Source: Rhodococcus antarcticus
GTDB lineage: Bacteria; Actinomycetota; Actinomycetes; Mycobacteriales; Mycobacteriaceae
Assembly (NCBI RefSeq): GCF_026153295.1
Contig: NZ_CP110617.1
Coordinates: 1 to 64,000 of the forward strand
Direction: 5' to 3'
DNA length: 64,000 bases
In this document: positions 1-34,127 of the stretch, piece after piece
Layout of the letters: each line of letters begins with the position of its first letter
Position numbering within the stretch: position 1 is the first letter of the stretch
Program-made: the position numbers and the translations under genes
The notes under the pieces: generated by a model
What the model saw: the letters and a program-made list of their open reading frames with translations, nothing else
Databases searched by the model: none
What the model was told of the DNA's origin: nothing

Positions 1-1695
1 ATGAGCGCGGGTGCAGGGCCTCGGTCCCACAGTGTGTGGCGGCTGCCCACGATCGCCGGGGACCCGACGATCGTGGGGTTCGAGTTCCTGGGTGTGGAGA
101 TCGCGATCGTCAACCGAACCCACCTGCGGGGACTACCCGAGAAGGGCGACGTGTGGTCCCGGGGAGGCGCGTACATCCTGCTGAACCCCACCTCGGACGA
201 CGGGTCAACGGGCACGTATGTGGGTCACGCACGAGATTTGACGATCCGGTTGACGCAGCACACGGCGTTGAAGCCAGAGTGGCGGCGGGCGGTCCTGATC
301 CGTCGGACCGGGCAGGAGCAGTTCTCGACGGCGCACGCTGAGTGGTTGGAAGCGGCGTTGCACACACGGATGTCCGGTGCCCCCAACGTGATGTTGTCGA
401 ACGTGCGGATCCCCGCGAACGACAGCATCCCCAACGCTGACGCGGAGTTGATGCGGCCGATCGTCACCAACGTGATGGGGGTCCTCCTCGCCCTGGGCGT
501 GAACGTGGACCGTCCAGCGAAGAAGAAGATCCTGAAGCCCCCGATGGTGACCACTGCCGACGACGCCGAGGACACCGAGGACACCGAGGGGGGTGGGGAG
601 GAGGCAAGCCCGGTGGGGGCGTCGACGTGGTGGTTGGCGGTGTACCTCGCTGCCCTCGCCGCACAAAACGTCACCCCCACACCCCACACCGCCCCCGACG
701 CCGACCCGGTGGTGCTGCGTCACAACCCGACCCCGCAGGACGTGACCCTCGCTGACCTGCTCCGCGTCGAGATGGTGCAACCAGGCGCGGTGCTCCGACC
801 GTTCACCAACCCCGACCCACACACCACGGTCGTGTCGTTGATAGTGCAGCCGGACGGTCAGGTCACGTTCGAGCACGACGACAACCCTGCGCAGTGGGCG
901 TTGAAGGACGCGACCGTGCACGCCCAGATTTTTGAGAACGTCTGGCACTACTGGGCTGACCCCACCGTCGACAAGCCGCGGCGGCGCCTGCAGAAACTCG
1001 CTGAGCAGTTCCTTCGCACCGGGCACGTTCCCGACGGATTCGACCCCAACCCCACCCCCGAAACAACACCCCCGAGCGCGGACACCGCAACGCACCCGGA
1101 CACCGTTATACCGCTCACCCAGCGGCTGTCGGATGTGTGGGCTGCAGCGTCGCACTTCGGTCCACCTCCCGTGCGACCTGTCGCCACGGAGAGCCTGGGT
1201 AACCCGGCACCTATTCCCGTGACACCTCCCGTGAAGGCCGCCAAGAACGTCACCGCGAAGAGCCGCGGGAAGACTGCTGCACCTGGTGAGCACCGGCCCG
1301 CCGCGAAACTCGGGTCGGGACGCTCCGAGATCCTTGCGCTCATGGATCGGGGTCACCTGAAGGCCGGTCAACGCCTGCACGCCACCTACCGGAACCGTCA
1401 GCACCACCTCAAGGTGCAACGGGACGGGAACCTACTCGTCGATGGCACCGCCCTCTGCGACTCGTTCAGCGGCGCCAAAAACCACATCACCATGACTGGC
1501 GGAAACGGTTGGTCGTTCTGGTACACCGACCAGAACATCCCAGTCCACGTCCTCCGCATCGACGACCTCACGACAGCCATCCGCCTCTACCGCGAGGAAC
1601 AAGCCGAGAACACTAAAGCCAAAGCGAAGAAGAAAAAGAAAACCACCCAACAGTCGACGCAGACGTTCCCGGTAACCGTGCGCCGCCAGAAATAG
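1..1695 (+). CDS. GIY-YIG domain + RAMA domain protein
   Basis: The predicted protein has 564 residues if the ATG at base 1 is the start; the window edge hides anything upstream, so it may be longer. Residues about 55-115 look like a GIY-YIG nuclease fold (GAYILLNP, then TYVGHARDLTIRL). Residues about 441-505 resemble the RAMA domain (RSEILALMDRGHLKAGQRL, then LLVDG and NGWSFW), a module associated with restriction enzymes and adenine methylases. A long low-complexity, acidic and proline-rich stretch lies between them, and the C-terminus is lysine-rich. The family pattern suggests a nuclease that senses modified DNA; that role is inference. It sits at the edge of a segment rich in defence genes. 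Confidence 0.7.
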   Translation: MSAGAGPRSHSVWRLPTIAGDPTIVGFEFLGVEIAIVNRTHLRGLPEKGDVWSRGGAYILLNPTSDDGSTGTYVGHARDLTIRLTQHTALKPEWRRAVLIRRTGQEQFSTAHAEWLEAALHTRMSGAPNVMLSNVRIPANDSIPNADAELMRPIVTNVMGVLLALGVNVDRPAKKKILKPPMVTTADDAEDTEDTEGGGEEASPVGASTWWLAVYLAALAAQNVTPTPHTAPDADPVVLRHNPTPQDVTLADLLRVEMVQPGAVLRPFTNPDPHTTVVSLIVQPDGQVTFEHDDNPAQWALKDATVHAQIFENVWHYWADPTVDKPRRRLQKLAEQFLRTGHVPDGFDPNPTPETTPPSADTATHPDTVIPLTQRLSDVWAAASHFGPPPVRPVATESLGNPAPIPVTPPVKAAKNVTAKSRGKTAAPGEHRPAAKLGSGRSEILALMDRGHLKAGQRLHATYRNRQHHLKVQRDGNLLVDGTALCDSFSGAKNHITMTGGNGWSFWYTDQNIPVHVLRIDDLTTAIRLYREEQAENTKAKAKKKKKTTQQSTQTFPVTVRRQK

Positions 1696-6317: not shown

Positions 6318-6989
6318 TCATCGCCGGTCCGGGCCTGGTAGTGCCGCCGGCACGACTACCCGTCCACCGAGCTCGACCCGTAGTCCTTGCGGTACGGCGA
6401 TGCCATTCAGCCGTTGCCAGCACTCGTCGACCAGGTCGAACAGCCCCGTGATTCCGGGCGCGGCGACGGCACCTCGCCCTCGGGAGCCAGTCATGTCCCT
6501 GTCCGTCCAGATTCCACTCCGTCCTCGTCGCCGCTGGTTCAGCAGCGGGGCCCGCGACACCTGGACCAAATGTTCCAGCGCTTCGCCCACCACCTGGTCC
6601 CCCAGCTCGCGCAAGTGACGTCGATCAGCCGCCGGCAACACGTCGCAGAGTGAGGGCCACTGCACGACAATGATCCGGTCCCACACCTCGGGTGGCACGG
6701 TGTTGGCCAGGTGATGACTCTCGCCGATCGGTAGATCGCGGAGGCGACGCTGGGCTGTCTGCGTCTGACCCACATAGATCAGACCGGGCCCCTGGCACAC
6801 CACGCCGTACAGCGCCGGTCCTTCCACGGCAGCACCGTCGCCACCGTGCGGTGCCGTCAGAGCGTGTCCGAGGGCCGCAGCGAACATCAGCCTGCGGTCT
6901 TGCAGCGCGCGGACCTTCATCGGTTCGCTGATGAGCTCCCGGGTGGCGGCTACCCATCGCTCAAACCCGTCCAGGGCGTCGCTGCTCAT
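6318..6989 (-). CDS. GIY-YIG superfamily protein
   Basis: A 223-residue protein using ATG 6989. Residues 60-82 carry the GIY-YIG core: LYGVV, then GLIYVGQTQTAQRRL, with R82 as a possible catalytic arginine. The N-terminus (1-55) is helical; the C-terminal third has QRRRGRSG and a domain ending in VPAALPGPDRR. Such domains cut DNA in repair, homing and restriction enzymes. The gene is divergent from a DGQHR-domain gene, sharing a 200-bp control region with palindromes. The two GIY-YIG proteins in this window are not obvious copies of each other. A role in DNA defence is inference. Confidence 0.65.
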   Translation of the reverse strand: MSSDALDGFERWVAATRELISEPMKVRALQDRRLMFAAALGHALTAPHGGDGAAVEGPALYGVVCQGPGLIYVGQTQTAQRRLRDLPIGESHHLANTVPPEVWDRIIVVQWPSLCDVLPAADRRHLRELGDQVVGEALEHLVQVSRAPLLNQRRRGRSGIWTDRDMTGSRGRGAVAAPGITGLFDLVDECWQRLNGIAVPQGLRVELGGRVVVPAALPGPDRR

Positions 6990-7113
6990 GCCCAACGCTA
7001 GAACAGCCGATCGTTGCCCTCTCCGGACGGGACGGTGGCCACTGCGCGCCCCCGGACGCCTCCTACGCACGGATGTACAGCGGGCTGCATGCGACAACCA
7101 AGTCTGCAGGGGT

Positions 7114-7173
7114 TGCTACGTAGATTATTCGTGCGTAGCATCGTCTACAGGAGGCACACTCGGTGTCGCTACG
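7114..7173. promoter_or_regulatory. Inverted/direct GCTACG repeats in a divergent promoter
   Basis: TGCTACG (7114-7120) and CGTAGCA (7134-7140) form a perfect 7-bp dyad with a 13-nt spacer. A third GCTACG is at 7168-7173. They lie between divergent starts at 6989 and 7191, as an operator would. Confidence 0.4.
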
Positions 7174-7190
7174 CAGGGATTGGTCAGGTC

Positions 7191-8363
7191 ATGGCGGAGA
7201 AGATCAAGCGCCCCACCTTCGGGCGGATCGCGCGGCCGGGCATTGGTTACCACCAGGGATCGCGTCAGATGGTCACCACCGTGTTGTCACCGGTGCAGTT
7301 CGTGAACGCGATCGGTGAGCGGGAGGAGTGGGACCCGCTCTCGGGGACGGGTACCAACCGGAGGGAAGACAAGCAGCACCGGCGCGGCATCGCGGACTAC
7401 CTGGCCGCGAACGCCGACTACGTCCTGAACAGCATCCTGGTGTACCTCTCGCCGGACGAGGCCGAGTTCGTCGCCGACGAACCTGGCGCACCTGTCTCTC
7501 TGGGAACCCTCTACATCGACGCCGACGCCAAGATGGTCGTCGGCGACGGAGGCCACCGCTCGAGCGCCTACGGCGATGTCATCGACGCCCACCGCCCCCT
7601 CGCCGACGAGGTCTTCGCCCGCATGACAGCGAACGGGCAGCCGGTCATCGTGGTGTTGGACGACAACCAGGCCCGCCGCGTCCAGGACTTCACCGACCTC
7701 CAGAACAACGCGAAGCCGCTCAACCAGTCCGTGGCCCAGTCGATGGACCGCCGAGAGCTGGTCAACCGCATGCTGCTCGAGGCCGTGATCAAGGCAGGCG
7801 ACGTGCCGGTGTTCGACAACGGCAACAGGGTCGAGTTCCTCACCGACTCCCCGGGCAAGCTCTCCGCCAAGATCGCCAGCTACAAGACGCTGCGGTACGC
7901 CTCGGGCACCCTGCTCGTCGGCACCGGATACCGCTCGACCAAGGCGTGGGCGGAGGCCGTGGACCTCCTCGTCTCACGCGACGAGGAGGCCGCCGCCGAG
8001 AAGGTCATCGCCTTCTGGCAGGGCTACTCCGATCTCCCCCCGGTGGCCCAGGCGCTCTCCGTCGACCGCGGAGTGGCCATCCTGCGTGAGGACACCTGGC
8101 TGACCTCGGCGAACGTGATGTACGCCCTCGCCGCCGCCGTGCACAACGTGACGACCGGCGACGCCGCCATCACGACCCCCGAAGCGTTCGCCGCCCTTGG
8201 CTCCTTCGACTTCACCCGGACCGCGACGGGTCTGCACGGCACGCTGGTCGATCCGCCACTCACCGCCGGAGGTAACCCGAAGGCGAGGACCGGCCGGGAC
8301 GCCTGGGAGAGCGCCGCGGAGGTGTTCACCAACGTCATCGTGCAGTCGGCCACGACGACGTAG
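7191..8363 (+). CDS. DGQHR/DndB-like protein
   Basis: A 390-residue protein. ATG 7191 is the first start without an upstream in-frame alternative; GCAGGGA precedes it at 7173-7179. The hallmark loop is GDGGHRSSAYG at residues 118-128 (DGGHR instead of DGQHR). Flanking segments (RRGIADYLAANADYVLNSILV before, QPVIVVLDDNQARRVQDF and DLQNNAKPLNQS after) fit the DndB/DGQHR fold. DndB represses or limits phosphorothioation in Dnd systems, and related domains occur in other DNA-modification defence loci. No dndACDE genes are near, so this is a stand-alone use. It is followed after 125 bases by a GHKL ATPase gene and probably cotranscribed. Confidence 0.75.
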   Translation: MAEKIKRPTFGRIARPGIGYHQGSRQMVTTVLSPVQFVNAIGEREEWDPLSGTGTNRREDKQHRRGIADYLAANADYVLNSILVYLSPDEAEFVADEPGAPVSLGTLYIDADAKMVVGDGGHRSSAYGDVIDAHRPLADEVFARMTANGQPVIVVLDDNQARRVQDFTDLQNNAKPLNQSVAQSMDRRELVNRMLLEAVIKAGDVPVFDNGNRVEFLTDSPGKLSAKIASYKTLRYASGTLLVGTGYRSTKAWAEAVDLLVSRDEEAAAEKVIAFWQGYSDLPPVAQALSVDRGVAILREDTWLTSANVMYALAAAVHNVTTGDAAITTPEAFAALGSFDFTRTATGLHGTLVDPPLTAGGNPKARTGRDAWESAAEVFTNVIVQSATTT

Positions 8364-8488
8364 TCGGCCGCTACACCCCCGTTCGGCAGGCAACTTCCGG
8401 GAACACCACCAGAACGCTGCACCCCGCTGCTCGACTACTACCCAACCGCCCGACCCGACCCGCGCCTCTCCCCCGTCAGGAGTACTCC

Positions 8489-10858
8489 ATGACCCACCCC
8501 GCCGGCATCGTTCAGGCAGCGCTCGCTGCGAAGACCGCGACCGATGCCACCAACGTTCAGAAGATGCTCGCCGAGTCCTTCGGCGCCACCCACAAGCGCC
8601 CCCTCGGGGACAAGTGGAACAACCACGGGCTGATGAGCACCTCGGGCAGCTTCGATCTCAAGCTGATCGAGAACGTCACGAACATGCAGGACGCCGTCAT
8701 CGAGCGCCACGCGCTCCTCAAGCACGGCACCGTCGCCGCCGTCCCCTACCCCTCCCCGCAGGCCGCCGCCGCCGACCTGTTCCCGTTCCAGACGGCGGCG
8801 GAGCGCGCCCGCATGGTGACCGTCACCTTCGAGGAGTCCGACAAGCCCACCGGCACGACCAAGCGGCTGACGCCCGTCTTCCGGGACCAGGGCTGCGGGC
8901 TGCGCCCCGAGTCCGTGCCCACCACCATCTTCGGCCTCGGTGGGTCCCAGAAGGACGGGGCCCTGTACCAGCAGGGCGCCTTCGGGCTCGGTGGGGCGAT
9001 GACCTTCCGCAACGCCAGGGCCGTCGTCCTGGTCTCCCGTCGCGACCCGCAGCTGCTGACGGCCGGCGAGCAGGACCTCATCACCGTGGCCGTCGTCCAG
9101 TGGCAGGACAACGTCAAGGGGCGCACCGCCTACTACCTCGTCGACCAGAAGTGGAACACCGCAGGGGACCCGGGCAAGCCGTGGTCCTGCCCGGCTACCG
9201 AAGTCCCCGACTTCGAGCCGGGCACCCACCTCGCCCTGGTGTCCTACCGCGTCGACGGATTCCACCGGGTCCGGGAGGGCGATGAGCGCACCTTCGACAC
9301 CGTCACCAACACCCGCCTGTTCCGGCCGGTGCTGCCCGTCCGCTTCACCAACATGATCGCGCGCGGCGAGACGCGCTCCACCAACCTCGTCGGGCTCGAG
9401 TATCGGCTGGACAACGCCAAGCAGACCTTCGACGAGGGCGAGGACGCCCTCCCGTTCTCCTTCGAGGGCACCACCTACACCCTGCCCGTCCGCTACGTGC
9501 TCTTCGCCAAGAAGCCCGGCGATCCCGGTGGCCGCCGCAGCTACGTCGCCCACAACCACGCCGTCCTGTTCCTCTCCAACGGCCAGACGCACCACCACTG
9601 GACGCCCCAGCAGTTCAAGCTCAAGACCAAGCTCAACAAGCTCCACGACCGGATCCTCGTGGTGGTCGACACCGATCAGCTCCCCATCCGCGTCCGCACC
9701 GGGCTGTTCACCGCCGACCGCAGCGAACTGGTCCGCGGCGACGCCGCTCTGCGCCTCGAGGAGGACCTGCGTGCGTTCCTCAACGACTGGGATGCCCTCA
9801 AGGAGGAGAACAACGCCGCCATCCGCGAGGCCCTCACCGGCACGGGTTCCGAGCCCACCCTCGAGGCTGCCCGCAAGATCAGCCGCGCCATGAACATCCC
9901 CGGCTTCGGCTCATCCGGAGACGGTGGTAGCGGCGGTGGCGGAACGAAGACCGGGGGCACCGGTAGCGGCGGCGGCGGCGGCAAGCCCACCAAGCCGGTC
10001 GACCTCAAGAACGACCCCACCACCATCACCGGACCCAGCACCGTCCAGGCCGTCATCGGGCGCACCAGGTCGATCACCTACACCGTCGACGTCGTGGACG
10101 AGTTCTTCAACGGCCGCGGCCAGCTCACCGTCGACAGCGACCACCCGAACATCAAAGGCGGCCACGACATCACCGTGGGCAAGGGCAACAAGGGTCGTGT
10201 CCGGGTCAGCGTTGCCGTCTCCGACGCCCTCGAGCCCGGCACCTACGAGCTCCGGGTGAGCCTCGCGGACTGGATGAAGTCCAGTGGTGGCGTCGGGCCC
10301 ACCCTCGAGCACACGACCAAGATCGAGCTCGTCGAGGAGATCCCCGGACAGGGCAACGGCAGCGGAAAGCCCACCCCCGGAACCGGCACGGCCGGAGGTC
10401 CCTCCCAGGGCACCAGCGTGGCCCTGGTGTGGAAGGGAATGAATGACGAGACCACCTGGTCGCGCACCACGGTCGGGGAGATCGTCGACACCCCCGCCCA
10501 CGTGCTCGCGGAGGCCAACCCCGACTACGCGGAACTGGCCGTGCTGGGCGACCAGAACATCCCCACGGTGGTGCTGAACACCGACTTCACTCCGCTCAAG
10601 CAGTACCTCGCCGGGCGCAACAAGCAGCTCGATTCCCTGGCCAACCCCAGGGAGCGCTACTCCGTCGGTGTGGGCGTTGGTCTCCTCCTGCTCAAGACGA
10701 GCGCGGACCAGCAGGCCGCCACCGATCCCATCAGCGACCGAGCGTTGGCCGCCGCGCAGAACGCCATTGCCAAGGGCGTCCTCGCCGTCATGCCGGCGTT
10801 CGACGACCTCAGCAAGGCCGCAGGCCTCGACGACACCGAGGACGACACCAACGAGTAG
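8489..10858 (+). CDS. GHKL (HSP90-like) ATPase with Gly-rich linker and C-terminal domains
   Basis: A 789-residue protein; AGGAG at 8479-8483 supports ATG 8489. The ATP site is clear: N-box E61-N65-D68-A69 (IENVTNMQDAV), G1 box D133-x-G135-x-G137 (RDQGCGLRPE) and G2 box GAFGLGGA (163-170). After the ATPase and a transducer-like region comes a Gly/Ser/Thr-rich linker (about 476-505). A beta-rich Ig-like domain follows (about 515-615), then a second linker and a C-terminal helical domain. The C-terminus is acidic (DDTEDDTNE). GHKL proteins of this style occur in several defence loci as sensors or clamps. The partner is presumably the DGQHR protein upstream; the function is unknown. Confidence 0.7.
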   Translation: MTHPAGIVQAALAAKTATDATNVQKMLAESFGATHKRPLGDKWNNHGLMSTSGSFDLKLIENVTNMQDAVIERHALLKHGTVAAVPYPSPQAAAADLFPFQTAAERARMVTVTFEESDKPTGTTKRLTPVFRDQGCGLRPESVPTTIFGLGGSQKDGALYQQGAFGLGGAMTFRNARAVVLVSRRDPQLLTAGEQDLITVAVVQWQDNVKGRTAYYLVDQKWNTAGDPGKPWSCPATEVPDFEPGTHLALVSYRVDGFHRVREGDERTFDTVTNTRLFRPVLPVRFTNMIARGETRSTNLVGLEYRLDNAKQTFDEGEDALPFSFEGTTYTLPVRYVLFAKKPGDPGGRRSYVAHNHAVLFLSNGQTHHHWTPQQFKLKTKLNKLHDRILVVVDTDQLPIRVRTGLFTADRSELVRGDAALRLEEDLRAFLNDWDALKEENNAAIREALTGTGSEPTLEAARKISRAMNIPGFGSSGDGGSGGGGTKTGGTGSGGGGGKPTKPVDLKNDPTTITGPSTVQAVIGRTRSITYTVDVVDEFFNGRGQLTVDSDHPNIKGGHDITVGKGNKGRVRVSVAVSDALEPGTYELRVSLADWMKSSGGVGPTLEHTTKIELVEEIPGQGNGSGKPTPGTGTAGGPSQGTSVALVWKGMNDETTWSRTTVGEIVDTPAHVLAEANPDYAELAVLGDQNIPTVVLNTDFTPLKQYLAGRNKQLDSLANPRERYSVGVGVGLLLLKTSADQQAATDPISDRALAAAQNAIAKGVLAVMPAFDDLSKAAGLDDTEDDTNE

Positions 10859-12274: not shown

Positions 12275-12425
12275 TCGAGTGTGATGCTGCTCGGCATCCA
12301 CGGCGCAGTCAGGAGATGGCATGTCCGCTCACTTCGTCCGGCGAGGCTCCGCCCAGATCAGAGCCTCCCTCGCGGTCACCGCGATGTTCTCGATGGTCGT
12401 CCAGGTGCCGGCGCAGGCCGCGACC

Positions 12426-13171
12426 ACGACGTCCACGTCCACGACGGCGGTCGCCATCGTGGCGCCGCCCGACAAGCCCGCCGGCAGCGACGGCTGGGCG
12501 CAGCTGGGCTCCGGCAGCAAGGTCTGGATCGACGCCGCCTGCCGCACCTCCCTCGTCGCCGCCGGCGTGCCCCTCAAGACGCTGGACTGGTCGGTCATCT
12601 CCACCTACCCCGACGTCGCCGCCATCGGCTGCTCCGCCCTCACCCCCACCCCCGCGCAGGCGCCCGCGCAGCCCACGCCCACGACGTCCACGTCCACGAC
12701 GGCGGTCGCCATCGTGGCGCCGCCCGACAAGCCCGCCGGCAGCGACGGCTGGGCGCAGCTGGGCTCCGGCAGCAAGGTCTGGATCGACGCCGCCTGCCGC
12801 ACCTCCCTCGTCGCCGCCGGCGTGCCCCTCAAGACGCTGGACTGGTCGGTCATCTCCACCTACCCCGACGTCGCCGCCATCGGCTGCTCCGCCCTCACCC
12901 CCCACCCCCGCGCAGGCGCCCGCGCAGCCCACGCCCACGACGTCCACGTCCACGACGGCGGTCGCCATCGTGGCGCCGCCCGACAAGCCCGCCGGCAGCG
13001 ACGGCTGGGCGCAGCTGGGCTCCGGCAGCAAGGTCTGGATCGACGCCGCCTGCCGCACCTCCCTCGTCGCCGCCGGCGTGCCCCTCAAGACGCTGGACTG
13101 GTCGGTCATCTCCACCTACCCCGACGTCGCCGCCATCGGCTGCTCCGCCCTCACCCCCACCCCCGCGCAGG
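12426..13171 (+). repeat. Three tandem 255-bp repeats
   Basis: Copies begin at 12426, 12681 and 12937. They look identical at the DNA level apart from one extra C at the end of copy 2, which makes its spacing 256 rather than 255. Near identity implies recent duplication or ongoing gene conversion. Confidence 0.85.
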
Positions 13172-14552: not shown

Positions 14553-15431
14553 TCACACAGCAAGATCGAGGGGCAGGTCGGCGATGTCCTTGAGGCGTCG
14601 TCCGTCGATCATCATCTGGAGCAGGTCGGTGGTCTCTTCGGTGCCGACCTGGTGGGCGGCGTCGAGGAGCTCGGGGAGGGCGAAGTGGTAGACGCAGTCG
14701 AGGTCGCCGGTGCCCAGGGCGAGCGAGCTGATGCGCACGGGGGTGGGTTCGCCGGTGACGACGACGACGTGGGGTAGGCGTCCCTTGCGGTTGCGGATGA
14801 GGTTGAGGGCTTCGCTGCGGGCGTTCTGGGCGCGGTCGCTGCGCAGGGTCCACTTGCAGGAGATGACGGCGTGCAGGATCGGGTGCGGCTGCACCGCCGC
14901 GCGCAGCGTGGCGTGGGTGGCGACGGAGTCGTCGACGAACACCTCGTGGGTGTTGATCTCGGCGTCGCTGACGGGGGCGCGGGAGACGACGACGTCGGGG
15001 GCGATGGCGTAGGCGTTGCCGAGGACGGCCTGCAAGGACGGGTTGGCGGTGACGGCGGCGTCGAGCTCGACGAGGTGGGCGTACTGCTCGAACTGCGCGA
15101 CCCCGGAGGTCTTACCCCGGGTGGTCAGCTTCGCCACCGACCAGGCCCCGGGACGCAGGTGACCCAGGCGGGGGAAGGTGGCCTGCAGGAAGTTGGTGCA
15201 GGCCTGCTCGAACCCACCCCCGGCGGTCTGCCCGGCCAGGCGCTCGCCCTCGGTCTCGACCTTGAGGGCGGTGGCGACGTGACCGGCGAGGGCCTTGCTG
15301 AGCTTGCTGCTGCTGTCGGCGTTACTCGCCACACCCTGGGTGACCGACAGGATGCCATCGGCCAGCAGGGAGGCGTGGAACACCGAACGCTGCTCGGCGA
15401 GGAACGCCTCCACCGCTGGCTGGTCGGTCAT
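14553..15431 (-). CDS. NgoMIV-family type II restriction endonuclease
   Basis: A 292-residue protein; ATG 15431 is two bases after the stop of the methyltransferase gene. The C-terminal half carries the family core (AVISCKWTLRSDRAQNARSE, then GRLPHVVVVTGEPTPVRIS and GDLDCVYHFALPELLDA). In NgoMIV this region holds the catalytic acidic and lysine residues. NgoMIV itself cuts GCCGGC; that this enzyme does so is inference. The gene sits downstream of its methyltransferase in one operon, so host DNA would be methylated first. Confidence 0.88.
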   Translation of the reverse strand: MTDQPAVEAFLAEQRSVFHASLLADGILSVTQGVASNADSSSKLSKALAGHVATALKVETEGERLAGQTAGGGFEQACTNFLQATFPRLGHLRPGAWSVAKLTTRGKTSGVAQFEQYAHLVELDAAVTANPSLQAVLGNAYAIAPDVVVSRAPVSDAEINTHEVFVDDSVATHATLRAAVQPHPILHAVISCKWTLRSDRAQNARSEALNLIRNRKGRLPHVVVVTGEPTPVRISSLALGTGDLDCVYHFALPELLDAAHQVGTEETTDLLQMMIDGRRLKDIADLPLDLAV

Positions 15432-15433
15432 GT

Positions 15434-16561
15434 TCAGGCGACGTCCGGGACCGCGACGAGGTGCCGCTCCGTCGCGGCGGCGACGTAGGGCTTGAGGTGG
15501 TCGGCGATGGCCCGGGCGAGGCCGACGGGGACGGCGTTGCCGATCTGCTTGGCGATACCGATCTTGGTGCCGCACCACCGGAAGTCGTCACCGAAGCCCT
15601 GGATGCGGGCGGCCTCGAGGTGGGTGATGGGCCGATTGGTGCGGGCGGTGGGGTCGTGCTCGTCCCACTGGGGGTGGAGGTACTGGCCCTTCTCGGGCTT
15701 GAAGAACTCGGTGCGGATGGTCAGGGAGGGCTGGTCCCAACGCATCCGGCCCATGACGTCGGTGGTGCCGGTGGGCTTGTTACGCCAGCAGTCGGGCAGC
15801 AGTTCGTCCGGCAGGTCGAAACGGCCACCGCCGGGGGGGATGCAGTCGTAGCGCAGCAGCGACTTCGGGGTGGGGGTACGCCCGAGGTGCAGGTCCTCAC
15901 CGGTGAACGGTCCGGGCATGTTCGTACCGTCGAAGGCCCACGTGCGGGCCGGGAGGGCGGTGTCGCGGGTGGCCATGGGGATCCCGGCGAGGGCGTCGCG
16001 GACGGTGTTCCACGGGAGCAGGCCGCCGGCGCCGCCGCGGGCGTGGGTGGGGGTGGGCAACGGGATGGCCCCGATGCGGGAGCCGATGACGATGGTGCGG
16101 TTGCGGCGCTGGGAGACCCCGAAGTCAGCGGCGTTCAGCACCCCGTAGTTCAGGGAGTAGCCCTTGAGGTCGCCGTCGGCGACGCTGCCCTGCAGAGCGG
16201 CGAACTCGGTGCTGGAGAGGAACCGGTCGACGTTCTCGATGACGAAGACCTTGGGCTTCGCGTGGGTCACCACCCGCAGGTACTGCTGCCACAGCTTGTT
16301 GCGGGGGTCGTTGACGTCGCGGCTACCGAGGTTGGAGAACCCCTGGCACGGGGGCCCGCCGATGACGAGGTCGGCGGTGGGGATGTCGGCGTTGTCCAGG
16401 GCGGTGATGTCCCCGGCGAAGGTGTGGTCGGCCCCGTAGTTCGCGGCGTAGGTGGCGGCAGCCTGCTGGTCCCACTCCACCGACAGCACCGGCTCGTAGC
16501 CGGCGTCGACGAACCCGGCGGTCATGCCCCCGCACCCAGCGAACAGGTCGATGATCTTCAT
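15434..16561 (-). CDS. DNA (cytosine-5) methyltransferase
   Basis: A 375-residue enzyme. The start is set at ATG 16561 because GGGAG is 5 bases upstream; another ATG 15 bases earlier is possible. Motifs: I DLFAGCGGMTAGF (residues 5-17), IV GPPCQGFSN with the catalytic Cys, VI ENVDRF, VIII QRRNR, and X GNAVPV near the end. The target-recognition region lies around residues 190-290. It methylates cytosine to protect host DNA from the adjacent NgoMIV-type enzyme, and is divergent from a vsr gene that repairs its deamination products. A dyad upstream may give autoregulation. Confidence 0.93.
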   Translation of the reverse strand: MKIIDLFAGCGGMTAGFVDAGYEPVLSVEWDQQAAATYAANYGADHTFAGDITALDNADIPTADLVIGGPPCQGFSNLGSRDVNDPRNKLWQQYLRVVTHAKPKVFVIENVDRFLSSTEFAALQGSVADGDLKGYSLNYGVLNAADFGVSQRRNRTIVIGSRIGAIPLPTPTHARGGAGGLLPWNTVRDALAGIPMATRDTALPARTWAFDGTNMPGPFTGEDLHLGRTPTPKSLLRYDCIPPGGGRFDLPDELLPDCWRNKPTGTTDVMGRMRWDQPSLTIRTEFFKPEKGQYLHPQWDEHDPTARTNRPITHLEAARIQGFGDDFRWCGTKIGIAKQIGNAVPVGLARAIADHLKPYVAAATERHLVAVPDVA

Positions 16562-16578
16562 CCGCGCTCCCAGCACCT

Positions 16579-16601
16579 ACACCACCGAATGACAGTGGTG
16601 T
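16579..16601. promoter_or_regulatory. 7-bp perfect dyad upstream of the methyltransferase
   Basis: ACACCAC (16579-16585) and GTGGTGT (16595-16601) with a 9-nt spacer lie 18 bases upstream of the methyltransferase ATG, where a repressor of the restriction-modification operon could bind. Confidence 0.35.
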
Positions 16602-16707
16602 GACTCTAGCCGCGCGGCACCGGCGACCGGGCACCACAGGGTCGCACCCATGACCCGTGCGACCCCGAGGTGCCCACCAGGGCGGCACCGGCGATTCTGG
16701 GTGCGTT

Positions 16708-17181
16708 ATGACCACACACCCGGATGCCGACGACACCGCCCCCGGGCCGTCAGCCGGCTACCGGCCAGTCCCCTCCTCGGTGGCGGCTCGGGCACGGTTC
16801 CGCGCCCAGCGGCGGCGGGACACCGCCCCCGAGCTCGCGCTGCGGCGGCTGCTCCACGCCCGGGGGCTGCGGTACCGGGTCGACACCGCCCCCCTGCCGG
16901 GGGTCCGCCGCCGGGCCGACGTGGTGTTCACCCGGGTGCAGCTGGCGGTGTTTGTCGACGGCTGCTTCTGGCACTCCTGCCCCGTCCACGGCACCAGCCC
17001 GAAGGCCAACGGACCGTGGTGGCGGGACAAGCTCGAAGCCAACGTGCGCCGGGACCGCGACACCGATACTCGGCTGGCCGAGGCAGGGTGGGCGGTGGTT
17101 CGGGTGTGGGAACACGAACCCCCCGCCGAGGCCGCCGACCGCGTCGCCCGGGCCTACGCAGCCCGCACCACCGGTCACTAA
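16708..17181 (+). CDS. vsr: Very short patch repair (Vsr) endonuclease
   Basis: A 157-residue protein; ATG 16708 is chosen because earlier in-frame starts precede the family domain by a long unlike tail. The Vsr core is present: RRDTAPELALRRLLHARGLR, then RRRADVVFTRVQLAVFVDGC with the catalytic Asp region, FWHSCPVHG (zinc/His site) and KLEANVRRDRDTDTRLAEAG. Vsr nicks T:G mismatches produced when methylcytosine deaminates. It is divergent from the cytosine methyltransferase and belongs to the same restriction-modification cluster. Confidence 0.9.
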   Translation: MTTHPDADDTAPGPSAGYRPVPSSVAARARFRAQRRRDTAPELALRRLLHARGLRYRVDTAPLPGVRRRADVVFTRVQLAVFVDGCFWHSCPVHGTSPKANGPWWRDKLEANVRRDRDTDTRLAEAGWAVVRVWEHEPPAEAADRVARAYAARTTGH

Positions 17182-25383: not shown

Positions 25384-26004
25384 TCAGGACTGCAGGCGCT
25401 CCTCAACGATCAGGTACCGGCGTAGGGCTGCTTCCACCAGGGCGCTACGGCTGCCGGCGCCCCACTGCCCCGCCAACGCGTCAAGCTGTTCGACGTCGGA
25501 ACGAAGAACGCCAGCAAGAGGAACGCGCGCTGGTGCCTGGGAATGACGCCGCCGTGTCGATATGGGGCTGGATGAACTGAAGAGCCCCCCGTGTGGTGCC
25601 GGGGTACCCGCGGGACCGGTCCAGTGCTGTGCCAGATCGTCTGCGTGGGCCTCAATGGCGTCGAGTGCGACCCGCCCGTACGTCCGCGCAGTAGCCGGGT
25701 TGGTTCCCCTTTCCTGCAGGGTCAGTGCACGCAGAGCTGCGTACACCTCGGGGGCGAGGGTGACCTCCGGGGGGGCGACTCGTGATGGTGCAGCGAGGCT
25801 GGCTGCGCGTTGCGAACGCGCGGTCGCAGCGGCGGTTGGCCGGGCCTGTTCGGGGGTAGTCGACGGTGCGTTAACCCGAGTGTTGTCCACCGAGGCGGCC
25901 GCATCAGGCGCGGGACGAGTGGGCGCAGGGAGCGGCGGTAGCAACTCGTCGATGTCGTCGAGAGCCGTGGGGTCGAACGCCGCGCGCCTGCGGGCGGTGC
26001 TCAT
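25384..26004 (-). CDS. ParA partner protein (putative ParB/RHH-type)
   Basis: A 206-residue protein. Its ATG (26004-26002) overlaps the parA stop (ATGA), so the two are coupled. The N-terminal half is disordered and acidic (DPTALDDIDELLPPLPAP). The C-terminal third has a helical DNA-binding pattern (VPLAGVLRSDVEQLDALAGQ, then SALVEAALRRYLIVEERL) like ribbon-helix-helix proteins. Order and coupling suggest the centromere-binding partner of ParA; sequence alone does not prove it. Confidence 0.6.
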   Translation of the reverse strand: MSTARRRAAFDPTALDDIDELLPPLPAPTRPAPDAAASVDNTRVNAPSTTPEQARPTAAATARSQRAASLAAPSRVAPPEVTLAPEVYAALRALTLQERGTNPATARTYGRVALDAIEAHADDLAQHWTGPAGTPAPHGGLFSSSSPISTRRRHSQAPARVPLAGVLRSDVEQLDALAGQWGAGSRSALVEAALRRYLIVEERLQS

Positions 26005-26924
26005 GCCACTCCCCCATCGCGAACGCTGACCTGCTCGGCTGCCCGCATGCGGTTGAGAATTTCTCGAGTGAGTGCCTGGTAGTCCCCCGCCAGCCCAGAG
26101 GGGTCTCGAGACCACAACCGATCACCGCCGCCGACCTTCTTGCGAAGCTGGGCGATTCGGTGCCGCTGGTGATCGCTTGCCACCGCAACCAGCTCGCCTG
26201 GGGTGAGGTGTCGCGTCCGCAGGTCCACGCTTGCGGCCCTGTCAGATCGAATGATGCTCTCGAAGGCGTTCGCGCCGCTGCCCTCGAGAAGCTGAGCGAC
26301 CTGGTCGACGATCTCACTGTTTCGGGCAGTGGCCCGAGGATTGACGTCGAACAGAACCACTCCGAGAAGTTCGACCAGGGAACCTGATGCCCGCGCCCGC
26401 AGGTATCGAGCGGCTAGCATCTCCACTCCTGACAGGCTGGCATCGTCGTCTCGAGTGGGTACCAGCAGGTATCGAGCAGTGGCGAGAAGTGCGTCGAGCA
26501 GGGGTGCGTCACCAGGTCCAGAATCGATGAGGACGAGGTCGTAGGCCTCTCGTGCGCAGAGGTCGTCGAGGGTGCTTGCGAGGTTGGCGCGCAGGTCCAT
26601 GCCGGTCTGCGCGGCGGTCGCTGCCATCGCCCCGACCAAGGCCAGGGATGCACCGCCCGGGATGACATCGAGCCCAGGCCGGACGTCGCGAACCGGCTGA
26701 AGCGGCTCGGCGTACTGCAGGGCCATAGCGAGCGAGCGACCGCGATCACCTTCGACTCCGAGATCAGAGGTCGAAACGTTTGCTTGCTGGTCAGCGTCGA
26801 GAACGAGAACGCGCTTGTTCGCGGCCGCGACCATGCCTGCAACGGCGGCCACGATGGAGCTCTTGCCGACACCCCCCTTCTGGTTGGCGACCAGAAGGGT
26901 TCGGTTCGCATGGCCGGTGCTCAT
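26001..26924 (-). CDS. parA: ParA-family partition ATPase
   Basis: A 307-residue protein from ATG 26924 (a longer frame reaches 27005 without a ribosome site). Walker A deviant motif NQKGGVGKSS (residues 14-23), then VLVLDADQQANVS (A'), and DLVLIDSGPGD (Walker B). The C-terminal region has helices typical of plasmid partition ATPases. It overlaps the ParB-like gene. It would move element copies to daughter cells; a repeat-rich region (27008-27125) lies upstream. Confidence 0.88.
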   Translation of the reverse strand: MSTGHANRTLLVANQKGGVGKSSIVAAVAGMVAAANKRVLVLDADQQANVSTSDLGVEGDRGRSLAMALQYAEPLQPVRDVRPGLDVIPGGASLALVGAMAATAAQTGMDLRANLASTLDDLCAREAYDLVLIDSGPGDAPLLDALLATARYLLVPTRDDDASLSGVEMLAARYLRARASGSLVELLGVVLFDVNPRATARNSEIVDQVAQLLEGSGANAFESIIRSDRAASVDLRTRHLTPGELVAVASDHQRHRIAQLRKKVGGGDRLWSRDPSGLAGDYQALTREILNRMRAAEQVSVRDGGVA

Positions 26925-27007
26925 GCCGTCGCACAGTACGTACCACCGTCCGTGCCGCGTGCCTTCGACACGCACCTGCATACGACCTTTTGGACGGTAT
27001 TTCATCC

Positions 27008-27125
27008 TGCCTTACGTTCGGCGTTACATCTTGCCTTCCGACCGTCGTTGTAGATGGTCGTGTTGATGGCTTTATGTCCGCCCTGTCACCCGTCCGTGTA
27101 CATGACCATGCGTATGGCTTTACGT
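27008..27125. repeat. Iteron-like repeats upstream of parA
   Basis: TGGCTTTACGT (27115-27125), TGGCTTTATGT (27067-27077) and TGCCTTACGT (27008-27017) recur with 48- and 59-base offsets. This is a candidate centromere, operator or origin region between parA and the replication-like gene. Confidence 0.4.
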
Positions 27126-27151
27126 GTGGCCGACTGTGCGGCAAGGCCAGG

Positions 27152-28504
27152 TCACTGGTGGCCGCGGCGGTGCTGGACGTGCTCGGCCAGGGCCAGCCTG
27201 TCGGCGGCTTCTTGTTCGGATCGTCGGTGGGCTGCGTTGGTGGCGGTGGTGTGGGCGGCGGTGAGGGCGGCGGCTCGTCCGGGGCCGGTGAGGGCGGCGA
27301 CCGCTGTGTGGCGGGCGGCGGTGTGGGTGTCGCGGGCGTTGAGCTGGGCGGTGGTGCGGGCGGTGCGGGCGGCGAGCTCGGCAGTGGCCTGGGCGTCGGG
27401 GATGGCGGTGGGGCGTTCGTTGATGTCGACGAGGTTGAGAAGGTGGCAGAGGTAGGAGATGGGTCGTCGTGGTGCGGTGAGGATCTGGTGGCCGGTGGTG
27501 GTGAGGTCGGTGAGCAGCTGGTTGAGGTCGCGGGCGGTCCACCCTGCCGCGGCGGCGGCGCTGAGTGCCCCGGACCAGCGGTGGGCCCCGTACTGCCTCG
27601 CCCACCTGGGGCACCGCTCGGAGGCCCTCCAATCAAGCATGAGGGCCGTTGCGGGGGTCCTGGAGCCCTCCGACCCACCAAAATCATCCTGCGCATGTCC
27701 TGGTGTCGTTGCCCGGCGCGCAGCGCCGTCCTCGTCCCGCGCAGCGGGTGTGCTTGGCTGGTTAGGGGTGGAGGTAACAACATTCCCATCGCTGCGCTCG
27801 GGGGAAGAACTACCACTACGTGGTGGGGTGCCACGCACCGTCTGACCTGCGATGACGCGCCCGGGGTTGTCCACAGGGATGGGGACGGGATCGGGTGCAG
27901 GGTCGGGGAAGCGGGGGGAGGGGTGCAGGGCGTACTCCGCGGTCCAGCCTCGACGGGTGTCCCCCCGCTCCCAGGAGGCCAGCCGCTCGATGAAGCTCCG
28001 GTGCCGGCCGGGCGCGACCTCGGTGGCCAGCCCGACCAGACGTAGCCAGGTCCGGGCTCGGGTGACGGTCCGCTTGCCGAGCTGTGTGGTGGCGGTGATC
28101 CCGGTGGTGCCGCCGGTGACCCCGAGCAGGGGCCGTGAGCAGCGCCCGGTGCGGTAGTCACCGGCCCGGGCGTGGGCGGTGGCCACCGCGTGCACAGCCC
28201 GCAGCGACACCCCACCCCCGGTGGCAGCGACCAGTTGGGGGCGGGTGAGCAGGTAGCCACGGCGGTACACCGCCACCACATGGGCCAGCCAGCGCTCGGC
28301 CGACCACCAGCAGGGCAGGGCCGACCACGAGATCGGCTCCACGCTCGCGCGGGCCAACGGCCGACGCAACAGGATCGAAGCAGTGGGGGAGGAGGAGTCA
28401 CGCCGGGCCGGCGGACGCGTGTGCCGCGAAGCGACACGCGAACCACTAGACCGGGTGTATGGACCGGATTCAGGGTGCGAGGTACCCTGAGACAAGGCAG
28501 CCAA
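27152..28504 (-). CDS. Putative plasmid replication protein
   Basis: A 450-residue frame, start uncertain (TTG 28504 or later). The N-terminal third contains a helix-turn-helix-like run (SAERWLAHVVAVYRRGYLLT, then GGVSLRAVHAVATAHARAGD). The C-terminal third has coiled-coil or helical Ala-rich stretches and WTARDLNQLLTDLTTTGHQ. Position next to ParA, the upstream terminator and hairpin, and the general pattern suggest the initiator of the element, but no catalytic motif is visible. It could also be another DNA-binding element protein. Confidence 0.45.
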   Translation of the reverse strand: MAALSQGTSHPESGPYTRSSGSRVASRHTRPPARRDSSSPTASILLRRPLARASVEPISWSALPCWWSAERWLAHVVAVYRRGYLLTRPQLVAATGGGVSLRAVHAVATAHARAGDYRTGRCSRPLLGVTGGTTGITATTQLGKRTVTRARTWLRLVGLATEVAPGRHRSFIERLASWERGDTRRGWTAEYALHPSPRFPDPAPDPVPIPVDNPGRVIAGQTVRGTPPRSGSSSPERSDGNVVTSTPNQPSTPAARDEDGAARRATTPGHAQDDFGGSEGSRTPATALMLDWRASERCPRWARQYGAHRWSGALSAAAAAGWTARDLNQLLTDLTTTGHQILTAPRRPISYLCHLLNLVDINERPTAIPDAQATAELAARTARTTAQLNARDTHTAARHTAVAALTGPGRAAALTAAHTTATNAAHRRSEQEAADRLALAEHVQHRRGHQ

Positions 28505-28573
28505 GCCAAGTCCCTTCGGGGCAGTGCACCAAGCCAGCGAGCGTCAACTCACTGGTCCTAGTTTTTAACCCGG

Positions 28574-28598
28574 ACCCGCCCTGCCAGGGGCGGGTTTT
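28574..28598 (+). terminator. Intrinsic terminator candidate
   Basis: CCCGCCC / GGGCGGG stem with TTTT following on the plus strand. No plus-strand gene ends just before it; it may end a short plus-strand RNA over the start of the replication-like gene. Confidence 0.5.
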
Positions 28599-28665
28599 CG
28601 GCGTACTAGGGCCTACTGACCAGGTGCGATGTGGAGTTGTTTTGCGGTCTGTCGACCGCTCACCG

Positions 28666-28863
28666 TCACGCGGTCTGAGGCAGCACCTCCTGGTCAAGCT
28701 GACGAACGAGGTCGTCCCGGCCAACGTGGGCGGCCATGACGTCAGCGACGTACTGGCTGATGCTCACGCCCCGTTCAGCAGCGGCATTGCGCACCACGTC
28801 GTGGACGGGGTGAGCAAGCCGCGTGATCGTGACGACGCGGTCTCCCTTGTGTGGCTGGGCCAT
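28666..28863 (-). CDS. Small RHH-like protein
   Basis: 65 residues from ATG 28863, or 88 residues from ATG 28932. The pattern RVVTITRLAHPVHDVVRNAA, then GVSISQYVADVMAAHVGRDD fits a ribbon-helix-helix regulator, often an antitoxin or relaxosome/plasmid regulator. It lies between the replication-like gene and the winged-helix gene. The partner is not evident. Confidence 0.55.
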   Translation of the reverse strand: MAQPHKGDRVVTITRLAHPVHDVVRNAAAERGVSISQYVADVMAAHVGRDDLVRQLDQEVLPQTA

Positions 28864-28972
28864 GCGCCACACCCTGCCGCCTCGTATCTGATTCGCCGGG
28901 TAGACACGCCCGAGTCGCGTAGAAGTACGCATCTCTAACCATCGCTGTCCCGACAGGGTTGTCGGCATGGTC

Positions 28973-29293
28973 CTAACCGCCGAGCAGGTACTCCCGCAGT
29001 GCGTCGACGAGGGTCTGCACCCGGTCACGGTCGAGGTCGTAGCGGACCCGGCGCCCGCTGCGCGCACCCGCCGCGGTGTCGGCGACAACGAGGTGGGCGG
29101 CCTCGAGCTGCACCAGACGCCGCCGGGCGGTGTTGGCGTCGGTGCCCAGGGCCTCGGCGATCTCCCCGGTGGTCGAGGGCCCGTGCACGGCGAGGTAGCG
29201 CACCACCCCCCGGGCGAACATCGTCCCGAAGCTCTCAATGGCCGCTGCCACCTCCCCGTCCACAGGCTCGGAGGGTCGGAGATAGCGCGGCAC
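28973..29293 (-). CDS. Winged-helix transcriptional regulator
   Basis: About 106 residues from GTG 29293. The ArsR/MarR-like pattern is VRYLAVHGPSTTGEIAEALG, then ANTARRRLVQLEAAHLVVAD and RRVRYDLDRDRVQTLVDALR. It is divergent from the transfer operon; a perfect 9-bp palindrome (29339-29361) lies between the two starts. It probably represses itself and the operon. Confidence 0.7.
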   Translation of the reverse strand: MPRYLRPSEPVDGEVAAAIESFGTMFARGVVRYLAVHGPSTTGEIAEALGTDANTARRRLVQLEAAHLVVADTAAGARSGRRVRYDLDRDRVQTLVDALREYLLGG

Positions 29294-29338
29294 CCACCCA
29301 TCGTGCCGGACACCGACCCTGTCGTGACCAGCAACGCT

Positions 29339-29361
29339 AGCACGACACTTATTGTCGTGCT
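29339..29361. promoter_or_regulatory. Perfect palindrome, probable operator
   Basis: AGCACGACA (29339-29347) and TGTCGTGCT (29353-29361) pair perfectly around CTTAT. It lies between the winged-helix gene and the transfer operon, the expected site of the regulator. Confidence 0.6.
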
Positions 29362-29520
29362 TTGATGGTGGGGTAGTCCGAAGATCACAAGCCGAGCACG
29401 AGGCGCAGCAGCCTGTGCCGGATGGAGCAGAGCAGAAGCGGGAGAAGCCCTGGGGAGGGGTTTCCCGCCAAGGGGGAGAAGCGATGAGGCCGTCCACGAC
29501 CGCGCCCACTGGGCCACCCA

Positions 29521-30663
29521 ATGTCTGATCAGGAAGCACGGAAGTCGGGCGCCGCGGCTGTGGTGGCGGTGCTGGGGGTGCCGGTCGGTGTGGTGCTGTT
29601 GGTGGTGTTGCTGCTGAGCGGGGGGAGCGCTGCGGCGGCGGCGTGTGCTCCTGGTACGCCGGGGTCGCTGGGGGTCCTGGTCGCTGGGGGGATGCCCGCG
29701 GGGTACCTGCCGCTGGTGCAGCGGGCGGGGAGGCTGTGCTCGGAGTTCCCGGCCCCGGTGATCGCCGCCCAGCTGTCCGCCGAGTCCACCTTCTCCGATG
29801 CCACCTCGCCGTCGGGGGCGCAGGGCCCGGCGCAGTTCATGCCCGGCACCTGGGCCACCTGGGGTCGTGACACCACCGGCAAGGGATTCGCCGACGTCCA
29901 CGACCCCTCCGACGCCGTGGATGCCCAGGCCCGCTTCGACTGCTCCCTCGCCGCCCAGGTCCGCGAGGGAATCGCCGGGGGCCGGATCGACGCCGGGTCC
30001 TCGGTCACCGAGATCGCCCTCGGCGCCTACAACGCCGGCTTCGGAGCCGTCCTGGGTGCCCGTGGGGTGCCGGGCAACTCCCAGACCCAGGCCTACGTCC
30101 CGCGCATCCTCGACCTGGCCCGCACCCGGTTCTCCGACACCGCCACCGCGACCCCGCCGGGCCCGGCCACCCCGGGTACCACCGTCACCGCCGCCTCCGC
30201 CGCGTCGGCGGGGTGTGGGGCAGCGGGCGGGGCTGTGCCGGTGGGTCCCGGTGGTGGGCCCCGGGCCCAGCAGGTCGTCGCCGCCGCCCTGACCCAGCGG
30301 GGTCTGCCCTACATCTGGGGCGGGGGCAACTACACCGGGCCCACCGGTGGTGGCTTCGACTGCTCCGGGCTCACCGCCTTCGCCTTCCACCAGGTCGGGC
30401 TCGACCTGCCCCGCACCGCCCAGACCCAGTACGCGGCCACCGCCAGCGTGCAGCTGCCCGGCGGCTACACCCCGGCGGCTTACCAGCCCGGGGACCTCCT
30501 GTTCTGGGGGACCCCGGACAACATCCACCACGTCGGCATCGCCATCGGCAACGGGCAGATGGTCCACGCCTCCACGTTCGGCCAACCCCTCGCGGTGGCC
30601 CCGATCTATGACGGCGACTTCCTCGCCGCCACCCGCCCCCTCGGCGCAGGAGCCACGCAGTGA
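29521..30663 (+). CDS. Bifunctional lytic transglycosylase/NlpC-P60 hydrolase
   Basis: A 380-residue protein with one N-terminal membrane helix (VPVGVVLLVVLLLS). Residues about 65-160 are an SLT-type domain (AAQLSAESTFSDATSPSGAQ, GPAQFMPGTWATWG). Residues about 245-370 are an NlpC/P60 domain with Cys in GGGFDCSGLTAF and His in NIHHVGIAI. It would open the peptidoglycan for the type IV secretion channel. It is the first gene of the operon and overlaps the next gene (GTGA). Confidence 0.88.
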   Translation: MSDQEARKSGAAAVVAVLGVPVGVVLLVVLLLSGGSAAAAACAPGTPGSLGVLVAGGMPAGYLPLVQRAGRLCSEFPAPVIAAQLSAESTFSDATSPSGAQGPAQFMPGTWATWGRDTTGKGFADVHDPSDAVDAQARFDCSLAAQVREGIAGGRIDAGSSVTEIALGAYNAGFGAVLGARGVPGNSQTQAYVPRILDLARTRFSDTATATPPGPATPGTTVTAASAASAGCGAAGGAVPVGPGGGPRAQQVVAAALTQRGLPYIWGGGNYTGPTGGGFDCSGLTAFAFHQVGLDLPRTAQTQYAATASVQLPGGYTPAAYQPGDLLFWGTPDNIHHVGIAIGNGQMVHASTFGQPLAVAPIYDGDFLAATRPLGAGATQ

Positions 30664-31325
30664 CCCGCCGCCACGCCGTCCTCACCGCGGCGACCACCGC
30701 GGCACTGCTGGTCGCCGCCGCCGGGTGCACAACCAACACCCAGGACGCACCGACCCCGGCCCCGCCCAGCTCGAGCACACCGGCACCGATCCCAGCCCCG
30801 ACGTCGGCCGGCGCTTCGGCGACGTCGGGGGTCCAGACTCCGACCGCGTCGGCCCCGGCGATGCCGACCGGCACCCCTGGCCGGCCGCGCGGGCTGCCCG
30901 CCGCGACGGTCGACACCACCAGCGCGGACGCCTTGGCGGAGGCCTTCACGACCACCACGTTCGCCTACGACACGGCCATCGATCTCAGCGTGTTCGACGC
31001 CCAGGTCCGCTCCGCCGTCTACGCCACCCCCGCCTTCGCGACCGAGCTCACCACCCCCCTGGCGCAGACCGGCACCGCATTCTTCGCGGACCTGGCCTCC
31101 CACCAGGGGTTCACCACCGTGGCCCTGGCGACCAACGCCGACGACGGCCAACCCGCGGACGCGCTGCGTTCCGCCGCGCGGTCGTACTCGGTCACCACGA
31201 CCGCGCGGGGCAGCGGCGGGTACACAGCCCCGGTCGACACCACCACCGTGTACCTGATGCTGACCCGGGCCGGGGCCAGCGCCGGGTGGCAGGTCACCTC
31301 GGTCACCTTCGGGCTGGGCCGATGA
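30660..31325 (+). CDS. Secretion-system lipoprotein (NTF2-like tail)
   Basis: A 221-residue protein from GTG 30660. A lipobox (LLVAAAGCTT) follows a signal peptide; the next 60 residues are Pro/Ser/Thr-rich. The C-terminal half (DALAEAFTTTTFAYDTAID, then VYLMLTRAGASAGWQVTSVT) fits a small NTF2-like fold as in VirB8/TcpC proteins. Gene overlaps (GTGA upstream, ATGA downstream) support translational coupling. Confidence 0.65.
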   Translation: MTRRHAVLTAATTAALLVAAAGCTTNTQDAPTPAPPSSSTPAPIPAPTSAGASATSGVQTPTASAPAMPTGTPGRPRGLPAATVDTTSADALAEAFTTTTFAYDTAIDLSVFDAQVRSAVYATPAFATELTTPLAQTGTAFFADLASHQGFTTVALATNADDGQPADALRSAARSYSVTTTARGSGGYTAPVDTTTVYLMLTRAGASAGWQVTSVTFGLGR

Positions 31326-33022: not shown

Positions 33023-33765
33023 GCACCCCCGACCGCAGCCGCGCGGGCAACCCGCTGCTGCCCACCGCGCCGCCGCCGTCGCCCCGCGAGGCACCGATCG
33101 AGTCCTCCGCGGTGCTCCGCGACCAGGTCGAGGCCCGCTACGGACCGCAGACCCCGCTGAACATCCCCCAGCAGGTCGGGGTCGGGCTACCCCCGTGGCG
33201 GGTGACCACCAACCCCGCCCTCTGGGTCGTCGGTGTGCACGGCGGCGCCGGGGCCACCACCATCACCCGCCTCCTCGGGCCCGCCACGGCAGAGCTGGCC
33301 CGGCACTACCCCGTCGCGCCCACCGGGGCACCGGCACCCCGGGTGCTGCTGGTGGCCCGCACCCACGCCAGCGGCCTGACCGCCGCCCGGGGTGCCGCCG
33401 CGCAGTGGGCGTCCGGCACCACCGGGGTGACCCTGGTGGGCCTGGTCGTCGTCGACGACGGACCGCGGCTGCCCAAGGACCTCGTCGCCACGGTGACCGC
33501 CCTGGGCGGCATGGTCCCCGCCCTGTGGCACCTGCCCTGGTGCGAAGCCTGGCGCAGCACCACCACCACGCCCACCGAGGTGCCGCGGCGCACCCGCAAG
33601 AGCCTCGACGCCATCACCGCCGCCGCCGAGAAGGCCACCGCCTGCCTACCGGCCCCGGGCACCCCGGGTGGGGCACTGCGACCACCACCCCCGGCTCACC
33701 CCGACCGCCACCCACCCGCCCCGCACCACACCACCCTGTGGGCCGCCCGGCCCACAGCCGACTGA
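33019..33765 (+). CDS. P-loop protein of the transfer operon (ParA/MinD-like)
   Basis: A 248-residue protein from GTG 33019. The pattern GVHGGAGATTITRLLG resembles a deviant Walker A, though the classic lysine is not present where expected. RVLLVARTHASGL and TLVGLVVVDDGPRL follow, as in MinD-like folds. The tail is Pro-rich. It lies in the operon between the propeller protein and the VirB2-like gene. A role in positioning or regulating the secretion machine is inference. Confidence 0.6.
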   Translation: MSTPDRSRAGNPLLPTAPPPSPREAPIESSAVLRDQVEARYGPQTPLNIPQQVGVGLPPWRVTTNPALWVVGVHGGAGATTITRLLGPATAELARHYPVAPTGAPAPRVLLVARTHASGLTAARGAAAQWASGTTGVTLVGLVVVDDGPRLPKDLVATVTALGGMVPALWHLPWCEAWRSTTTTPTEVPRRTRKSLDAITAAAEKATACLPAPGTPGGALRPPPPAHPDRHPPAPHHTTLWAARPTAD

Positions 33766-33783
33766 CCCCAGAAGGAACCCACC

Positions 33784-34083: not shown

Positions 34084-34127
34084 CCACCCGCACCCTTACC
34101 CACCGACCAACCAGCAGGGGGACGACC

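Follow-up and report, generated by a model that had tools for sequence, protein, structure and literature searches.

Fusions of a GIY-YIG nuclease domain with a RAMA domain, in a two-domain layout, were pointed out in 2024 as enzymes that might depend on 6mA, as stated in the accessible sections of PMC11037411. CMoRE, according to the available text of PMC12923530, is a proven type IV enzyme composed of a GIY-YIG domain, a flexible linker and a C-terminal sensor. The RAMA-fold domain of CcrM makes phosphate contacts that are termed nonspecific in the available portion of PMC6787082, and the RAMA domain of MPND binds dsDNA, where 6mA gave no significant binding increase in the accessible part of PMC9963953. 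The PDC-S14 family, a single-gene phage defence candidate in PADLOC, is named in the passages at hand of PMC11719660 and PMC10855318; the P. aeruginosa survey of the latter, in its available part, places it in 57% of 14 phage-susceptible strains, which counts against a defence reading. Within the partial literature coverage no activity or phage test of any member of the GIY-YIG-RAMA family was found. The reading of adenine methylation by RAMA is debated for bacteria and animals, and the cutting by a small nuclease would report the target of its RAMA domain.

A gene of this kind opens the window, i.e. the whole 64,000-nucleotide stretch that was analysed, which corresponds to bases 1-64000 of a contig of 99,635 b (C3) in a genome of 3.94 Mb on four contigs. 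It is an open frame from ATG to stop (1..1695, plus strand, as are all features of the gene given below) and encodes a GIY-YIG / RAMA / RAMA protein of 564 aa. The first-pass annotation had suspected that the 5' end lies outside the window. Since the ATG is at base 1 of the contig and the N-terminus of a chromosomal paralogue (paralogue B) is comparable, the gene is probably complete at this end. On a circular contig the frame would stay open for about 60 codons further upstream, in a stretch without ATG; an end overlap of the contig was looked for and none was found.

The nuclease domain and the two RAMA copies

The presence of GIY-YIG and RAMA modules in one protein, proposed in the first-pass annotation, was borne out by Pfam PF18755, by the PDC-S14 profile, by the catalytic positions and by the predicted fold. 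The N-terminal module, a GIY-YIG domain with an N-terminal strand extension, covers residues 12-172 (34..516). The catalytic set of GIY-YIG nucleases is, in order, Tyr, Tyr, Arg, Glu and Asn. These correspond to Y58 (172-174), Y73 (217-219), R83 (247-249), E117 (349-351) and N134 (400-402) in an alignment of 34 proteins, composed of the window protein, its two own paralogues and 31 loci from genome_contigs. All five residues, the loss of which would have spoken against a nuclease, are kept in the window protein and in 32 of its 33 relatives (33/34 rows), the exception being paralogue B; in UvrC, the mutants Y29F and N88A are named in PDB titles.

Profile evidence for this domain was divided: PADLOC PDC-S14 matched residues 15-179 at E 3.1e-49 (2.9e-93 for paralogue A of the same genome), while Pfam PF01541 gave 14.4 bits with the whole protein and 16.2 with the domain alone and did not reach its cut-off of 22.6, a gathering score that is a library threshold and not a structural trait of the GIY-YIG superfamily. 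The generic profile alone is thus insufficient to confirm the domain. Modelled alone, it reached a mean pLDDT of 90.5. Its best structural match was 2lwf (Z 8.2, rmsd 2.7 over 96), the N-terminal domain of a plant Grx which we take to be GRXS16, a GIY-YIG fold. UvrC followed with 1ycz, 1yd5, 1yd4 and 1yd6 at Z 6.0-6.2 (1ycz: Z 6.2, rmsd 2.3 over 77) and CMoRE 9u75 at Z 4.4; next came unrelated proteins at Z <=3.3, in a VIA-align comparison where rows with Z <4 were counted as noise. Foldseek alone returned no match at E <0.001 for either the nuclease or the RAMA model, and phmmer with single domains and the nuclease-domain profile against PDB sequences found no GIY-YIG structure. Taken together, the predicted structure and the alignment place the fold and the active site of a GIY-YIG nuclease in this protein, and it is very probably a working nuclease.

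The canonical RAMA domain (RAMA 2) lies at residues 431-522 (1291..1566) and scored 71.9 bits with the family profile and 53.2 bits with PF18755 (cut-off 35.2). The best PF18755 stretch was residues 430-516, so the domain is real but sits somewhat N-terminal of the last 65 residues to which it had been assigned. Its predicted structure matched MPND 7ydw at Z 9.4 and CcrM 6pbd at Z 8.9; furthermore, a profile built from 31 family RAMA sequences detected CcrM (E 1.8e-10) and MPND (0.008). Four of the five DNA-contact residues of CcrM are present (S488/S315, N502/N330, W504/W332 and R519/R350, with G503 completing the NGW motif), and the position of CcrM H317 is occupied by S490. The four shared CcrM residues are listed as structural or phosphate-binding in the available part of PMC6787082. 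Behind RAMA 2 stands a helix with a lysine-rich tail, recognized from sequence and secondary structure (residues 523-564, 1567..1692).

Between the nuclease and RAMA 2 we recognized a second, degenerate copy, absent from the earlier description. RAMA 1 (residues about 241-339, 721..1017) is largely folded by pLDDT and had weak profile scores: 19.8 bits with the family profile, against 71.9 for RAMA 2, and 17.8 bits (E 0.0032, below cut-off) with PF18755. It keeps the N and W of the NGW motif and has lost the G, as well as the Ser of the S-x-S motif. It is flanked by linker 1 (residues 173-240, 517..720), predicted to be disordered except for one helix, and by the mostly disordered linker 2 (residues 340-430, 1018..1290); pLDDT was below 50 over most of 173-240 and of about 346-435, in agreement with the disordered linker proposed at first sight.

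RAMA copy number varies among the 31 relatives: by motif count, 5 have none, 21 one, 4 two and 1 three. The five RAMA-less proteins are all from Nonomuraea of one Streptosporangiaceae branch, a branch in which the gene stands at the end of a conjugation cluster; RAMA is thus not required for the role of those proteins. RAMA diverged faster than the nuclease domain in 10/10 chosen pairs (5 at p <0.05; the pairs are not all independent), which might fit a domain that chooses the target, or weaker constraint.

Distribution and genomic setting

Any match to the protein was found in 24/397 genomes of the order, some of them to the RAMA part only. Five proteins of the order that matched by RAMA only were scanned, and all of them were GmrSD-type nucleases with a C-terminal RAMA (L031, L033, L034, L035 and L037). 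The search of genome_contigs with alignment A3 confirmed 74/149 candidate stretches, 31 of which span the nuclease domain and form the set of relatives used here. The viral_contigs gave no confirmed relative with alignment A2, and with the tighter A3 gave 11 loci from 53 stretches, in every case only through the RAMA side of the query. Two records, limited to the GIY-YIG part, came from tblastn in plasmids, and 50,697 phage records were searched without match. A protein from a genome in the window's family (L017) and that of Rhodococcoides kyotonense (L046) are one and the same, so that the host is probably related to Rhodococcus.

Two paralogues, A (L006:7970-9364) and B (L006:10940-12412), stand in tandem on contig C1 of the host genome, with a transposase-like sequence, recognized by eye, between them and an ATPase-like gene and an HsdR-HsdS-HsdM set nearby. 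Paralogue B has lost Y73, R83 and N134, but its frame is open and it carries two RAMA domains of 70.7 and 60.4 bits. In the tree the window copy pairs with paralogue B (99/86); since both are long branches, the pairing may be an artefact. The HsdM near the paralogues is the only N6_Mtase match of the genome above cut-off, and the N6_N4_Mtase, D12 and Eco57I families gave no match in the genome profile search.

No adenine methylase stands beside the window gene, where the only system is of NgoMIV (cytosine) type, about 13 kb off, with restriction enzyme, C5 cytosine methylase and Vsr endonuclease genes (14556-17178). The plasmid traits ParA, NlpC/P60-SLT, TraG/T4CP and relaxase were detected at window 26004-41448 and at L008:9192-10781. 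Other observations concern the neighbouring DNA in its own right. A DndB-like gene (7176-8360, PF14072 E 2e-29) adjoins a gene (8489-10855) whose 789-aa product resembles GHKL-type ATPases by eye but lacks a match in Pfam, and a divergent minus-strand frame (6321-7097) shows GIY-YIG-like motifs by eye, likewise without Pfam match; window 6321-10858 is possibly a separate defence cassette. Two adjoining minus-strand frames at 12332-12859 have an identical opening amino-acid sequence, suggesting tandem duplication, and a short intergenic repeat (TTCCACAACCG...) at L007 6914 and 9316, near a contig end, may mark where a mobile element ends.

Adenine-type restriction-modification (R-M) genes were detected by phmmer in 12/31 relatives' loci (L041, L042, L043, L044, L046, L048, L050, L051, L053, L059, L061 and L063); the other 19 had none within the stretch, and a type I R-like fragment occurs in L055. 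The gene can be intimately placed: in L053 the genes hsdM / GIY-YIG-RAMA / hsdS / hsdR succeed one another as in an operon, with ends that overlap, hsdM lies within 57 b downstream in L059 and a type ISP gene within 6 b upstream in L044, and an MmeI-type gene (L061) or an N6 methylase gene (L041) follows directly. The proteins of L043 and L044 are 89% identical, yet adjoin Eco57I-type and ISP-type genes, respectively; those of L046 and L047 are 93% identical, with MmeI near the former and a SMODS synthetase near the latter. Close homologues beside different systems make the nuclease look like a swappable defence part. In L043 an 868-aa T5orf172-domain protein (7306-9909) is encoded between the Eco57I-type methylase and the GIY-YIG-RAMA gene.

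Adenine-type R-M genes also belonged to the most frequent Pfam families in 85 neighbour proteins, a tally of two genes per side in 23/31 loci (all but L054, L058, L060 and L065-L069) that is based on a home-made gene caller, by which the target gene itself was uncalled in 6 loci. The density of PF02384 in 29 of the 31 genomes (L058 and L066 left out), 93 matches in ~174.6 Mb of summed rounded sizes, gives an expectation of 0.27 for the loci (511,636 b), where 8 HsdM/N6-type frames were found; the comparison is a rough guide as the two detectors differ, and the excess is inflated also by the clustering of defence genes. It shows residence in R-M islands, not partnership.

Possible function and its alternatives

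The best overall explanation, to which we assign a probability of about 0.55, is that the protein belongs to the PDC-S14 family and works alone, as a restriction-type defence nuclease. Its GIY-YIG domain would cut DNA, and the C-terminal RAMA, with the contact residues observed above, would grip the DNA backbone as the CcrM C-terminal domain does. RAMA would also pick the target, most likely an adenine modification state or a similar foreign-DNA feature; this is the weakest step of the model. Degenerate RAMA 1 and the flexible linkers might serve as a spacer and an additional DNA grip. The gene travels on a conjugative-type plasmid, its relatives moving into and out of R-M islands. A defence role as such is likely. 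The modification-dependent nuclease of the first-pass annotation holds in part: a nuclease is joined to a DNA-binding RAMA in a defence-candidate family, but the dependence is plausible only, at slightly below an even chance. The CMoRE-like layout and the RAMA of all five GmrSD nucleases argue for it; the lack of a clear 6mA preference of the CcrM and MPND RAMA domains argues against it, as do the adenine methylases adjoining the relatives. Beside such methylases a nuclease cutting any 6mA would be lethal, so sequence-specific or otherwise limited reading would be needed. If RAMA does read 6mA, the protein would offer a new 6mA-mapping enzyme and an explanation of how the nuclease coexists with adenine methylases.

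The operon-like row of L053, the tight adjacency in L059, L044, L061 and L041, and the place of the chromosomal pair near the only above-cut-off HsdM-type match could also be understood if the protein were an accessory nuclease of adenine-type R-M, acting with a neighbouring methylase or specificity subunit and not alone. We consider this unlikely: the type of partner differs between close homologues, 19/31 loci have no such gene within the stretch, and the window copy has only the distant cytosine system. A more novel reading, of low probability, would make GIY-YIG-RAMA a portable second layer of adenine-type R-M. RAMA, evolving fast, would sense the presence or absence of the adenine mark away from the sites of the resident methylase, and a catalytically dead paralogue such as B, both RAMA domains of which are intact, would be partner or brake of the active copies. 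A nonspecific grip by RAMA, with the nuclease targeting DNA structure or its own sequence preference (repair or type II-like), is likewise improbable; the nonspecific phosphate contacts of CcrM, the MPND binding and the position of UvrC among the closest solved nuclease folds are consistent with it, but RAMA is found again on nucleases of the type IV family GmrSD, and a housekeeping repair enzyme is ill-fitting with the patchy presence and the R-M island setting.

Finally, the protein might serve conjugative elements by processing transferred DNA or attacking rival plasmids. The window plasmid has TraG/T4CP, NlpC/P60-SLT and relaxase genes, and in L054, L060 and L068 a conjugation cluster (VirB4 or T4CP, Replic_Relax, NlpC/P60), identified by profile, ends with the GIY-YIG gene, in L069 partly so; L065 and L067 were labelled conjugation-type by neighbour size alone. 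This is nevertheless quite unlikely for the window copy, which does not adjoin transfer genes and is carried by a plasmid that encodes a relaxase of its own. RAMA is missing from three of the five rows with the conjugation label, and a Replic_Relax gene was not found in the genome, in a search whose controls were likewise silent. A role in conjugation only was set aside since such relatives group together in a single branch, apart from the window copy.

Comparison with known systems

The fusion and the 6mA idea are already present in PMC11037411, and the family is already in PADLOC. The fusions in the accessible sections of that paper, mentioned there without a sequence or a test, have the same domain pair, where the window protein has two RAMA copies. 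It belongs to PDC-S14 by profile, but exceeds the profile in length (564 aa against 280 positions), with the degenerate RAMA and the long linkers in addition. With CMoRE and PD-T4-3 it shares the layout of N-terminal GIY-YIG, linker and C-terminal sensor (fold Z 4.4-4.7); CMoRE, however, has a GIYxY motif as defined in the available text of PMC12923530, in place of which the window protein has Y58-I-L60, with Leu at Y58+2 in 34/34 rows, and its sensor is unrelated to RAMA. The winged-helix GIY-YIG 6mA enzymes Ahi29725I and Apa233I of PMC11037411, again in its accessible part, likewise join GIY-YIG to a DNA-reading domain, but their reader is a winged helix and is named first, whereas here it is RAMA.

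GIY-YIG-DUF4357 proteins (L022, L025, L030 and others) agree with the window protein in the N-terminal domain, conserved motifs included. In several proteins one stretch is matched by both the DUF4357 and the RAMA profile, and the C-terminal domain of the two scanned, L022 and L030, was above cut-off as DUF4357, not RAMA. The CcrM C-terminal domain (6pbd) shares the fold and most DNA-contact residues with RAMA 2, but CcrM is a methyltransferase and the window protein a predicted nuclease. New here are the two chromosomal paralogues in the host genome, one of them with a ruined active site, and the adenine R-M genes in 12/31 loci, in one of which the gene stands inside an operon-like hsd row.
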